DNA of 64,000 bases from Lishizhenia sp. (GCA_007117355.1 SKGS01000044.1:25527-89526), one strand, 5' to 3'. Positions 16,681 through 34,195 are shown, counted from the first letter of the stretch. Notes: generated from the sequence alone by a model not told the origin. Made by a program: numbers and translations.

Positions 16681-17328
16681 TTAATTCTGAACAAAATCGC
16701 TCAAAAGTTTGATTTGATTTCGGTACAACAATAGAAGTTTATCGTTCTCCATTTTTTTCAATAAACGAGAAATTACTACACGAGAAGTTGCCATGTCTGT
16801 TGCTATTTGCTCATGGGACAGATTAATGAGTGAAGAGCCAGAAGTTGAAGCCTTTAGCTTTAAATAATTTATCAAGCGTTCATCTAGTTTTTGAAAAGCT
16901 ATTTGGTCAATTGTATGAAGCATTTCATTAAAACGATTTCTAATGGTGGTCATTACAAAGCTTTTCCAAGTAGGATACGTCATTAACCATTCATCCATTA
17001 CCGCAATTGGAATAGTCAACATTTCAACATCTTGTTCGGCCACGGCTTTTATTTCGCTTGGAAATTGTTCCATACAGCAAGTAAATGTCATGGCGCAACT
17101 CTCTTTAGCATTTACAAAATAGAGCAAAATCTCTCGGCCTTCTTCGTCCATTCTAGAAACCTTAACAATTCCAGAAACAATAACTGGCATAACTCGAACG
17201 ATTTGACCATAATCTAAAATCGTATCACCAGCTTTAATTTCAGCATAAGAAGATTTTTCTCTCAGCTCATTTAAAAGCTCTGGCTCAAATACATGTTTAA
17301 AATGTTCTAAAACATCCATTTCCTTCAT
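16681..17328 (-). CDS. Crp/Fnr-family transcriptional regulator
   Basis: cNMP-like domain plus HTH 'LSHEQIATDMATSRVVISRLLKKMEND'; Cys cluster 'ESCAMTFTCCM'. Confidence 0.85.
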   Translation of the reverse strand: MKEMDVLEHFKHVFEPELLNELREKSSYAEIKAGDTILDYGQIVRVMPVIVSGIVKVSRMDEEGREILLYFVNAKESCAMTFTCCMEQFPSEIKAVAEQDVEMLTIPIAVMDEWLMTYPTWKSFVMTTIRNRFNEMLHTIDQIAFQKLDERLINYLKLKASTSGSSLINLSHEQIATDMATSRVVISRLLKKMENDKLLLLYRNQIKLLSDFVQN

Positions 17329-29740: not shown

Positions 29741-29756
29741 TAATTTTGTAAATTTG
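29741..29756 (+). promoter_or_regulatory. Tandem TAnnTTTG -7-like motifs upstream of ferritin
   Basis: TAATTTTG TAAATTTG directly abutting, ~16 bp before ATG 29772; no clear TTTG at -33. Confidence 0.35.
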
Positions 29757-29771
29757 TAAAAAGGAAAAATT

Positions 29772-30290
29772 ATGAAAGCAAGAATAGAAGAAGCGTTAAA
29801 CGAACAAATTAAGAAAGAAGCATCATCAAGCCATTTTTACTTATCAATGGCTTCTTGGGCAGAAACTAAAGGATTAAACGGTACAGCAAAGTTTTTATAT
29901 CAACATAGTGATGAAGAGCGTTTTCACATGCTTAAACTTGTTAAGTTTGTGAATGAAAGAGGAGGAAAAGCTGATATTCCATCGGTTGATAAGCCACAAA
30001 AAAGTTTTGAAAGCTTAGAGAATATATTTGAACTTTTATTGGAGCATGAAATGCAAGTTACAGAAAGCATCAATAATTTGGTGGACATCTGTCTTCAAGA
30101 AAAGGACTATACAACCCATAATTTTATACAGTGGTATGTATCCGAGCAGTTAGAAGAGGAAGCACTTGCCCGAACAATTCTGGATAAGTTGAAAATGATT
30201 GGGACAGATAAAGGTGGTCTTTATCTATTTGACAGAGATCTAGAAAACTCTGCTATTTCCCCTGATCCAGCGGCAGAGCAACAAGCATAA
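29772..30290 (+). CDS. Ferritin
   Basis: 'EALNEQIKKEASSSHFYLSMASWAETKGLNGTAKFLYQHSDEERFHMLKLVKFVNERGGKADIP', 'WYVSEQLEEEALARTILDKLKMIG'. Confidence 0.95.
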   Translation: MKARIEEALNEQIKKEASSSHFYLSMASWAETKGLNGTAKFLYQHSDEERFHMLKLVKFVNERGGKADIPSVDKPQKSFESLENIFELLLEHEMQVTESINNLVDICLQEKDYTTHNFIQWYVSEQLEEEALARTILDKLKMIGTDKGGLYLFDRDLENSAISPDPAAEQQA

Positions 30291-30298
30291 AACGAAAG

Positions 30299-33200
30299 AT
30301 GCGTTTGCATAGAAATACACTGTTAGTAATAACTTTGATTATATGGTCTTGTGTAAGTTTTACGCAAGACCATATTCAGTTTAAAAGCTATACTATCAAT
30401 GATGGTCTCTCACAAAGTGTAATTTCAAGTGTAGCGCAAGATGATTTAGGTGCTTTATGGATAGGAACACAAGATGGAATAAATAGGTTCAACGGAAAAG
30501 AATTTGATGTTTTCACTACTGATGCTTTTGAGGGAATTGCAAATGAATACATCTTTGACGTTAAGAAAGATAGCGATGGCAAGGTTTGGTTTGGAACAAA
30601 TAAAGGTTTAGTTAGCTATGACCCAAAACTAGAATCATTTAACTCTTATTTTAACACCATTAATAATCAGAATGCTTTTCGGTCAATTGGGATTGATAGA
30701 GTGGGAACAATTTGGGCTGGAACGCTATCTGGTTCGCTTGTAACGTTCAACCCAAAAACAGAAACTTTTAATTTAATTGAAGAAATTAATTCTAAATCGG
30801 CTATTATATCCGTTTTCTGTGACTATAATACCATAATAGTAGCAACGGAATATGACGGTGTGTTTTCTTTCAATAGTTCCACTAAAGAGTACCAAAACTA
30901 CTCCATTAACCCTTTGTCAAACGCAGAGATTATTGTAAACAAACTATTAAAATCACCAAACGAGGGAATTGTTTTACTTACCTCTCTTGGCGTTTTTGAA
31001 TTAGATAAAGAGAGCAAAGAGTTTCGCCCTTCGAAATCGAACTTCTTTTTACCTTTCCAACAAATTAGTATTACAGATTTACTATTCATTCCAGATGACA
31101 GGTACTTTGTGGCTTCTGAAAATAAAGGGCTTTATCAAGTATTAATTTTAGAAGATTCATTAGATGTAATCAACCATACTGCCGATCACTTTCAAAAAGG
31201 GGCACTCAGCTCAGACAGAATAAACTCGTTATATCAAGATAAGAAAGGAGTTGTTTGGATAAGTACACAAAGGGGATTAAATAGTTTTGACCCTAATAGT
31301 GAGGGTTTTAAAGGAGTTGGTTTTTCAGTAAATCTTGACAAAGGACTTCCAACGAAAAACGTTTGGCGGTTTAGAGAAGATTCTTCAGGTAACTACTTAT
31401 TTATTGCTGGTGACCACGGTATAACAAGGTTTAATAGAAAAACACATTACTATGAACATTTCTATCGGATATCAGGAAGTAACAATGAAGATATTACCAC
31501 TCTTGACATGCACGTCATATCTAAAAACAAACTTATTGTTGCTTGTTTTGACGGTTTATTCGAATTAACGATAGACAGGGAAAACCCAAAAAATCACAAC
31601 TATCGACCACTCATTAACTACACAAACAAAGAAAGAGATTTTGAAAAAACATACTCCATATTGCCGTACAAAAAAGAAAACACATTTCTTGTTGGTACAA
31701 AAGCTGGGGTAATACTATATAATCACAATTCAGGAAAAGTAACCTTTTTTAAAAGTGATGATAAACATCAAAACTGGTTGGGCTCAGGGCCTGTTCGCTA
31801 TATGTTTAAAACATCAGAAAACCGATTTTTTTTATGCCCGAGCACAGGCGGAATATTTGAATTCATTGAAACGCAAGAAGGGTTTCAAATCGAACTGTCA
31901 AGTTTGTTTCGCAAAGTTTCTGAAAAATCAAATGATTACATTACAAGTAGTTACGAGACTAAAGAAGGTGCTTTTTGGTTTGGAACGATGGGTGATGGAT
32001 TGTATTTCTTCAATCCTTTAGAAAATGAAATAAAACACTATAACAAGCAAAGTGGATTGCCAAACAATGTAATTTATGGCGTTCAGAAATCTCCAAAAGA
32101 TCCAATCTTGTGGTTATCAACGAACAGAGGATTGGTTAAATATAGAATTTCACAAGAACGATTTACTAATTTTTCTGAGGCAGATGGACTTAAAAGCGAT
32201 GAGTTGAATTTTGGAGCCTTATTTCAGTCACTTAAAGGTAACCTATACATTGGCGGGATTATGGGTTACAACTTTTTTAATCCTGCTGAGTCACTCACCA
32301 AAACTTCGAAACTAAACGTTTTCTTCTCAAAGCTGGAGGTGGATAATGAGGAGATAAGACCAAATCAAAAAAATAGTTTTATTGAAACGAGCATAGCGTT
32401 TACGAATTCAATAGCTCTACCTTATACTAAAAGGAACATCAATTTACATTTCTATGCAGATGATTTGAGCAACCCTGACCGTATTGAATACCGCTTCACG
32501 TTAAAAGGAAGTTCAGAAGTGGATGAATTTTTGGGTGCTACCAATCAACTGCGTTTTACAAGTTTAGCTCCTGGAAAATATACCCTACACGTTTACGCTC
32601 GTCACTTCAATGGAGAATGGACCATCAACCCAGCAAAATTAACGATAACTATTGAGAGTCCGTTTTGGCTTTCGTGGTGGTTTTATGTTATTATAACAGG
32701 TGTAGTTGCTCTAATGGTATTAATAATTGTAAAACGCAGCATTGAGAAAGAACGAAGGCAACAAGTGAAACTAGAGTTGAAAATTGCAGAGAGAACCAGA
32801 GAAATCAGAGAGAAATCGCTTCAAATTGAGCGTCAAAAAGAACGGTTAGAAAAGCAAAAAGTAGCCCTTGAAATGGAAAAAGAGAAGTCAGAGAGGCTAC
32901 TGAACAATATTCTTCCTGAAGACACTGCAACACAACTAAAAAAAGACGGTCGTTCTGCCGCTAGAGACTTTAGTTTAGTCACGGTTATGTTTACCGATTT
33001 CGTTGGTTTCACACAAGTAGCGGAAAAAATGAATGCAAAAGACTTGGTTGCAATTCTCGACCGCTTTTTCCGTAAATTTGATGAAATCATTGATGCCTAT
33101 GATTTAGAAAAAATCAAAACGATTGGCGATTCTTACATGTGTGCTGGTGGTGTTCCAATTAGAAGCAAAACAAACCCAATTAATACCGTATTAGCTGCAA

Positions 33201-34195
33201 TTCAGATCCAGGAATACATGCGTGAAAGAGAAGCTGAGGCAATAAAAAATGGCGAAATAGTTTGGAAATTACGCATCGGAATTAATACTGGGCCAGTTTC
33301 TGCTGGCGTGATAGGAAGCAAACGTTATGCTTATGATATTTGGGGTAGAACAGTTAACAGAGCACAACGAATGGAGCAAATGTGCACACCTGGTAGTATT
33401 GCTATTTCTGAAGATACATACGAACACGTACAGCCGTATTTTGAGTTTGTGAATAAAGGAAAAGTGCAAACGAAAAGCGGACTAAAAATACACATGCTTG
33501 AGGTTACCTCAATTAAAAAGGAATTGTCTGTAAATGGGGAAGGTGTTCTATCAAATGATGCATTTCACAAACTTGTTCAGCTTCATGTTTTTAGTAAAAT
33601 CAATTATTCGAAGGCTGAACGATATATAATGCACAAGCTACAAAAAGAACTGAGCAAAAAACTCCATTATCACAGTATTTGGCACACCAAGGATGTTACG
33701 CGTCAAGTAGAAAGAATTGCCTTAGGTGAAGGGATAACAGATGAAGATTTATTTTTATTGAAAACAGCTGCATCTTACCACGATGCTGGATTTATCACTC
33801 AGTATGAGAAAAACGAACCAGTTGGAGCTCAATTAGCGCAAGAAATACTGCCTAACTTTGGTTATACCCAAGACCATATTGACCGAATTAAAGAGTTAAT
33901 TTATGCCACACAGGTACCTCATCAACCGAAAAATAAACTAGAGGAAATCATTTGTGACGCCGACTTAGATTATTTGGGTAGAGATGATTTTCATGAAATA
34001 GCAGATAAACTGCGCGTTGAATTGCGTGAACACGGAAAACTTAACAGCGACCGAAAATGGGATGAAACACAAGTAAGCTTTTTAACGCAGCATCGCTATT
34101 TCACTCGAACATCGATACAAACCAGAAGAATGAAAAAAACGCAAAATTTAGCGGAAATTAAAAAGCGGTTAGAAGAGAATAATTATAAGGATTAG
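30299..34195 (+). CDS. Sensor propeller (Reg_prop/Y_Y_Y) + TM + class III adenylyl cyclase + HD-domain phosphohydrolase
   Basis: 'NDGLSQSVISSVAQDDLGALWIGTQDGINRFNG' propeller repeats; 'VTVMFTDFVGFTQVAEKM', 'KIKTIGDSYMCAGG', 'YDIWGRTVNRAQRME'; HD 'HYHSIWHTKDV...AASYHDAGF...ICDADLDYLG'. Confidence 0.92.
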   Translation: MRLHRNTLLVITLIIWSCVSFTQDHIQFKSYTINDGLSQSVISSVAQDDLGALWIGTQDGINRFNGKEFDVFTTDAFEGIANEYIFDVKKDSDGKVWFGTNKGLVSYDPKLESFNSYFNTINNQNAFRSIGIDRVGTIWAGTLSGSLVTFNPKTETFNLIEEINSKSAIISVFCDYNTIIVATEYDGVFSFNSSTKEYQNYSINPLSNAEIIVNKLLKSPNEGIVLLTSLGVFELDKESKEFRPSKSNFFLPFQQISITDLLFIPDDRYFVASENKGLYQVLILEDSLDVINHTADHFQKGALSSDRINSLYQDKKGVVWISTQRGLNSFDPNSEGFKGVGFSVNLDKGLPTKNVWRFREDSSGNYLFIAGDHGITRFNRKTHYYEHFYRISGSNNEDITTLDMHVISKNKLIVACFDGLFELTIDRENPKNHNYRPLINYTNKERDFEKTYSILPYKKENTFLVGTKAGVILYNHNSGKVTFFKSDDKHQNWLGSGPVRYMFKTSENRFFLCPSTGGIFEFIETQEGFQIELSSLFRKVSEKSNDYITSSYETKEGAFWFGTMGDGLYFFNPLENEIKHYNKQSGLPNNVIYGVQKSPKDPILWLSTNRGLVKYRISQERFTNFSEADGLKSDELNFGALFQSLKGNLYIGGIMGYNFFNPAESLTKTSKLNVFFSKLEVDNEEIRPNQKNSFIETSIAFTNSIALPYTKRNINLHFYADDLSNPDRIEYRFTLKGSSEVDEFLGATNQLRFTSLAPGKYTLHVYARHFNGEWTINPAKLTITIESPFWLSWWFYVIITGVVALMVLIIVKRSIEKERRQQVKLELKIAERTREIREKSLQIERQKERLEKQKVALEMEKEKSERLLNNILPEDTATQLKKDGRSAARDFSLVTVMFTDFVGFTQVAEKMNAKDLVAILDRFFRKFDEIIDAYDLEKIKTIGDSYMCAGGVPIRSKTNPINTVLAAIQIQEYMREREAEAIKNGEIVWKLRIGINTGPVSAGVIGSKRYAYDIWGRTVNRAQRMEQMCTPGSIAISEDTYEHVQPYFEFVNKGKVQTKSGLKIHMLEVTSIKKELSVNGEGVLSNDAFHKLVQLHVFSKINYSKAERYIMHKLQKELSKKLHYHSIWHTKDVTRQVERIALGEGITDEDLFLLKTAASYHDAGFITQYEKNEPVGAQLAQEILPNFGYTQDHIDRIKELIYATQVPHQPKNKLEEIICDADLDYLGRDDFHEIADKLRVELREHGKLNSDRKWDETQVSFLTQHRYFTRTSIQTRRMKKTQNLAEIKKRLEENNYKD

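Follow-up and report, generated by a model that had tools for sequence, protein, structure and literature searches.

A receptor-linked adenylyl cyclase fused to a putative cyclic-nucleotide phosphodiesterase in Flavobacteriales

Gene organization and domain layout

The window, a 64,000 nt stretch of DNA from Lishizhenia sp. (GCA_007117355.1, SKGS01000044.1:25527-89526), is part of contig C80 of a 3.09 Mb genome in 280 contigs; the named organisms closest to it are Lishizhenia, Brumimicrobium, Fluviicola, and other Crocinitomicaceae. One uninterrupted ORF with an ATG start and no internal stop occupies window positions 30299-34195 (+) and encodes a protein of 1298 aa, in which the Pfam domains follow each other in the order Reg_prop, Y_Y_Y, Guanylate_cyc, and HD. 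An earlier note on this DNA had described a propeller sensor, transmembrane segment, coiled coil, cyclase, and HD domain in a single protein, and both Pfam and hydropathy agree with this description.

All segments lie on the + strand. The protein starts with a signal-peptide-like segment (residues 1-22, positions 30299-30364; hydropathy peak at residues 8-26), followed by a periplasmic Reg_prop double beta-propeller (residues 23-723, 30365-32467), which was assigned by Pfam (PF07494, E-value 5e-25) and structure homology, and by a Y_Y_Y domain (residues 724-785, 32468-32653; PF07495, E-value 3.6e-13). A single strong hydropathy peak (mean 2.57) marks one transmembrane helix (residues 793-811, 32675-32731). 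The coiled coil and cyclase-transducing segment LLNNILPEDTATQLK (residues 815-886, 32741-32956), recognized from the sequence, is helical in the AF2 model; an HNOBA-like linker was matched at this place in relatives, and the LLNNILP segment after the coiled coil is of the kind found ahead of class III cyclases. The cyclase domain (residues 890-1063, 32966-33487), a linker of fixed length (residues 1064-1111, 33488-33631), and the HD phosphohydrolase domain (residues 1112-1298, 33632-34192) complete the protein.

For the ectodomain (residues 1-804), the best structural matches are hybrid two-component sensors (4a2l, E-value 2e-76; 3v9f, E-value 2e-51; 3ott), which bears out, together with the Pfam propeller and Y_Y_Y domain, the previous view of a sensor of this type. 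These Bacteroidota sensors likewise have a signal peptide, a double Reg_prop propeller, Y_Y_Y, and one transmembrane helix. Their output, however, is a histidine kinase plus receiver, neither of which was detected in the window protein by the Pfam scan; here the output is a cyclase and an HD domain instead.

The stop codon of a gene encoding a ferritin of 172 aa (29772-30290, +; Pfam Ferritin, E-value 1e-41) lies 8 bases before the ATG of the sensor gene. In at least 28 of the 55 full-length named species loci with room for it, ferritin is the gene directly upstream (same strand, gap of at most 150 bases); in nine more it lies farther upstream, and three more have an overlapping ferritin ORF. 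This tight pair recurs across many genera, which suggests a link of the sensor to iron or redox state. The genes ahead of ferritin in the window (adenylosuccinate synthetase, an LptA-like gene, and two small ORFs) are not seen again around the loci of relatives. In some relatives, YfiR-like, TPR, and SpoIIE-phosphatase genes intervene between ferritin and sensor; thus L112 (774-4716), as well as L108, L116, and L129, has on one strand ferritin, a YfiR/HmsC-like gene, a TPR gene, a SpoIIE-phosphatase sensor, and then the propeller-cyclase-HD gene. Upstream of the ferritin gene, TAAATTTG (29749-29756, +) is a candidate -7 element of the Bacteroidota type (TAnnTTTG), a consensus match with no TTG at the usual spacing in a pattern scan, and possibly represents the promoter of a ferritin-sensor operon. 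A sigma-70 scan gave no enrichment.

The five window neighbours that were scanned are ferritin, the LptA-like gene, adenylosuccinate synthetase, OmpA, and PorP/SprF, of which the last two are located downstream of the sensor gene in convergent orientation. In five other loci (L123, L139, L146, L149, and L151), OmpA-like and PorP/SprF-like genes are situated upstream of the cyclase-HD gene on the same strand, the OmpA-like gene at a distance of 2-84 bases. The window also encodes a CRP/FNR-type regulator (16681-17328, -) in which no obvious cAMP-pocket motif is seen; the genome has four cNMP-binding proteins, this one included. According to a crude pattern, none of the four CRP-like genes of this genome has a clear cAMP-pocket signature.

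Catalytic residues of the cyclase and HD domains

The cyclase domain matches Guanylate_cyc (PF00211) with an E-value of 5.7e-45 and 153.6 bits (gathering score 21.9) and is homologous to the solved adenylyl cyclases AC9, mycobacterial Rv1625c, and 5o5k. The previously quoted motifs FTDFVGFT (D900), KIKTIGDSYM (K940, D944), and YDIWG (D1013) were all found, and the window protein has a complete ATP-type set, consisting of the metal residues D900/D944, the purine pair K940/D1013, and the transition-state residues N1020/R1024. The ATP-specifying Lys, placed by the earlier note in KIKTIGD, is present and can be refined to the second Lys, K940, at the position occupied by Glu in guanylyl cyclases.

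We compared 111 distinct fused modules of the propeller, propeller-less, and receiver forms, from which exact duplicates had been removed, though one genome may sit in both the named and the unnamed set. K940, D944, and N1020 are constant in all 111, D900 is kept in 108 of the 109 modules read, and D1013 in 110 of 111. R1024 is kept in 103 modules; eight differ, six of them with Gln (L048, L078, L108, L114, L117, and L127), while the other cyclase and HD residues are kept in these six, and their cyclases may possibly have low activity. The cyclase of L065 is without D900 and D1013. Hence, not every cyclase of the family need be active. For the window protein, Pfam, the homology to adenylyl cyclases, and these residue counts uphold the assignment to the ATP-type class III cyclases; the residues point to ATP as the substrate, and synthesis of cAMP is a well-supported prediction.

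The HD domain was assigned from Pfam, AF2, Foldseek, and residue invariance. The Pfam HD match (PF01966) covers residues 1129-1222 (E-value 2.5e-5; 25.0 bits vs a gathering cut-off of 22). Here, too, the motifs noticed earlier are in place: YHSIWH (H1125/H1129), YHDAGF (H1161-D1162), and CDADLDYL (D1220/D1222). H1125, H1129, H1161, D1162, E1173, D1220, D1222, E1241, and W1254 are invariant in 111 of 111 modules, and the mean identity to the window protein is higher for the HD domain (0.64) than for the cyclase (0.54). The motifs of both domains, invariant or almost so, are thus far beyond chance. The AF2 models, calculated for monomers, reached a pLDDT of 94.9 for the HD domain alone and 90.8 for cyclase plus HD (pTM 0.82).

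As best PDB matches of the HD model, Foldseek places 2pq7, YpgQ, and human PDE4/PDE5 together; the PDE4/5 matches (TMq about 0.58-0.67, TMt about 0.4) are no better than those of other HD hydrolases. The predicted fold is compatible with a cyclic-nucleotide phosphodiesterase and equally with other HD hydrolases. A sequence-profile search against the PDB gave bacterial HD proteins first (2pq7, 2e-7) and PDE9 at only 0.15. No match to PDEase_I (PF00233) was obtained in the window protein at E≤1, and relatives gave only weak motif-level matches (0.0047 and 0.068). In length, the domain falls short of a class I PDE. A true class I PDE finds no support in Pfam or the PDB sequence search, and the HxxxH motif was rejected as proof of a PDE, since it is common to HD proteins of the 2pq7/YedJ type. 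2pq7 and Bacillus YpgQ (5dqv/5dqw) have the fold and the HxxxH/HD/D motif in common with the window HD but differ from it in sequence, with about 14-19% identity in the fold alignment. We know of no link of these small bacterial HD hydrolases to cyclases. In a search for class II PDEs (PF02112), none was found in 20 genomes including that of the window; another PDE, for example a class III (metallophosphoesterase) cAMP PDE, may exist.

Conservation and modularity of the cyclase-HD unit

An HD relative is present in 55 of 59 genomes of relatives, mostly as orthologues of ~1300 aa. Among the best 80 named loci, 79 encode cyclase-HD fusions, and the remaining one is cut by a contig end; in L145, a masked stretch breaks the ORF. 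Same-length orthologues in many genomes led us to reject a one-off fusion or an assembly artefact. The arrangement is conserved across the order Flavobacteriales. The spacing between the two domains is kept as well: from residue 1063 to H1125 there are 62 aa in 99 of 111 modules. No such fusion was found among the phage records searched.

Four kinds of input are connected to this unit: the propeller (1300 aa in total), a bare transmembrane helix plus coiled coil (~520 aa), a response-regulator receiver (~570 aa), and, in L167, a kinase/AAA/GAF array. In L122, L125, L130, L131, L135, L140-L143, L151, and L152 the whole propeller is lost, and transmembrane helix, coiled coil, cyclase, and HD are left. 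In the HD tree the receiver group forms one clade (100/99), whereas propeller and TM-only forms are interspersed, a pattern that repeated loss of the propeller would produce. The window genome itself encodes a second cyclase, a receiver-cyclase (L002, 3-656, -) whose sequence breaks off where contig C74 ends, short of any readable HD domain, and which is probably the receiver-cyclase-HD paralogue.

Genomic association with class III cyclases and PycTM

Outside the order, the HD domain is mostly unfused to a cyclase. For the non-fused HD relatives in genomes with a PF00211 cyclase, we determined the distance to the nearest such gene on the same contig and computed the expected number from the number of cyclases and the genome size. 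Sixteen of 47 were within 6 kb of a PF00211 gene vs 0.55 expected (P about 6e-21, ignoring kinship). These cases span eight bacterial families; when only the first-listed case per family was counted, the association was 4 of 13 (P 3e-6). The profile matches of HD and cyclase are only 35-44 bases apart in G178, G202, and G075, the last with the consecutive order cyclase-cyclase-HD on one strand (L179). The neighbours include receiver-cyclases; these separate genes thus encode the parts that are joined in one protein in the order to which the window belongs. On an Adhaeribacter plasmid, a distant HD is encoded without a neighbouring cyclase.

Other HD relatives have YitT-DUF2179 membrane or TPR partners, and HD-YitT-DUF2179 fusions occur next to a cyclase gene in L168 (5350-6810) and L170 (4153-5610), which were both checked, and in L171 (4379-5839). 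A large group of HD ORFs of ~400-450 aa proved, where checked, to be HD-PycTM, i.e., fused to the Pycsar effector domain (PF18967); this combination looks common across Bacteroidota (L072, 4302-5498; L172; L173). Four of 21 presumed HD-PycTM proteins are encoded within 6 kb of a cyclase. No PF00211 gene was found in 10 of 30 genomes with HD-PycTM, so that part of the HD family probably has another target, and activity on cAMP should not be presumed for all of its members.

Proposed function and alternatives

We consider it reasonably probable that the window protein senses the periplasm and works as both adenylyl cyclase and cyclic-nucleotide phosphodiesterase, probably in the form of a homodimer. 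The double propeller and Y_Y_Y receptor would bind a periplasmic ligand, and the transmembrane helix and coiled coil would relay the signal to the class III cyclase, which as a homodimer would form 3',5'-cAMP from ATP. The C-terminal HD domain on its fixed-length linker would act as a metal-dependent phosphodiesterase and hydrolyse the product cAMP to AMP, so that the balance of synthesis and hydrolysis, probably switched by dimer conformation, sets a local, fast-resetting cAMP signal. Dimerization, ATP specificity, reciprocal control, and the ligand belong to the inferred parts of this scheme, and degradation of a cyclic nucleotide by the HD domain is suggested by association. We favour a bifunctional receptor because both active sites are complete and kept by selection across the order, because sensors were swapped or lost while the cyclase-HD pair was retained, and because unfused HD and cyclase are often gene neighbours. 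These observations also speak for the earlier idea that one polypeptide makes and removes a cyclic nucleotide; against it stands that the HD substrate is fixed neither by sequence nor by fold.

The fallback offered by the earlier note was an HD domain acting on another nucleotide. It could hydrolyse a nucleoside triphosphate, 5'-AMP, or an alarmone and thereby shape the substrate or the by-products of the cyclase rather than cAMP. The top fold matches mix small bacterial HD hydrolases of different or uncharacterized function with class I PDEs, YpgQ and 2pq7 are among the best hits by sequence as well as by fold, such small bacterial enzymes have the HxxxH...HD...D signature, too, and HD relatives do occur in genomes without PF00211 cyclases. 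Yet in eight families HD and class III cyclase are repeatedly fused or encoded close together, which points to a cyclic nucleotide as the common molecule, as does the association with the PycTM effector, and we regard this reading as less likely, with a modest chance of being correct. A regulatory module that binds a cNMP or metal, controls the cyclase allosterically, and is catalytically irrelevant would suit the fixed linker, but pure binding domains normally lose some of their metal ligands, whereas here every module keeps all of them as well as the putative general acid, which makes this possibility rather improbable.

Very improbable in our view is a Pycsar-like defence enzyme, in which, upon phage infection, a pyrimidine or other cNMP would be produced by the cyclase and cleared by the HD domain. 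PADLOC PycC models do match the cyclase (best 3.9e-14), though weakly, as for distant cyclase relatives, and HD-PycTM relatives exist, some of them beside cyclases. However, the ATP-type K940/D1013 are conserved, there is no PycTM among the five scanned neighbours, and the gene, with its periplasmic sensor, is found throughout the order, whereas a defence gene would be patchy. Compared with Pycsar (PycC plus PycTM), the window protein shares a class III cyclase and an HD type whose relatives are fused to PycTM (PF18967), but it lacks this effector, has ATP-type residues, and is receptor-linked.

Comparison with known bifunctional systems

The nearest functional analogue of the predicted bifunctional receptor is CAPE (combined adenylyl cyclase with phosphodiesterase), which is found in Marchantia and other streptophytes, with CAPE-like proteins in oomycetes; MpCAPE has both cyclase and phosphodiesterase activities (PMC8115329). 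Both proteins join a class III cyclase and an HD-superfamily domain in one membrane polypeptide, and that of CAPE hydrolyses cAMP. In contrast to the window protein, in which the cyclase precedes the HD domain, CAPE is eukaryotic, with an N-terminal PDE of true class I and a C-terminal cyclase; the window HD, of a short bacterial type, escapes the Pfam PDEase_I model, and a fused periplasmic receptor sets the window protein apart as well. We infer that the two combinations are of independent origin. By analogy, GGDEF-EAL and GGDEF-HD-GYP proteins of c-di-GMP signalling also unite synthesis and degradation domains for one messenger in one sensor, but with another messenger and other enzyme families. 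GGDEF-EAL proteins often have one degenerate half, whereas the cyclase-HD unit of the window protein keeps both catalytic residue sets intact.

In the open-access literature, we found neither a description nor a test of a bacterial cyclase-HD or cyclase-PDE fusion. Little work exists on cAMP signalling in Bacteroidota; among the four Bacteroidetes genomes available at the time, an early census counted no adenylyl cyclase (PMC1183210).

At about even chances, we propose that the short HD family widespread in Bacteroidota is a hitherto unrecognized bacterial class of cyclic-nucleotide phosphodiesterases that was joined time and again, by fusion or as a gene partner, to class III cyclases and the Pycsar effector domain, and that the window protein is a receptor with both activities intact, switched by one periplasmic signal and encoded in a conserved ferritin operon. 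If this is true, one enzyme with intact opposing activities would lend itself as a simple genetic model for the local control of a messenger. It would also define a new bacterial cyclic-nucleotide phosphodiesterase family, recognizable by its fusions, and would tie the widespread HD-PycTM proteins to messenger clearance.
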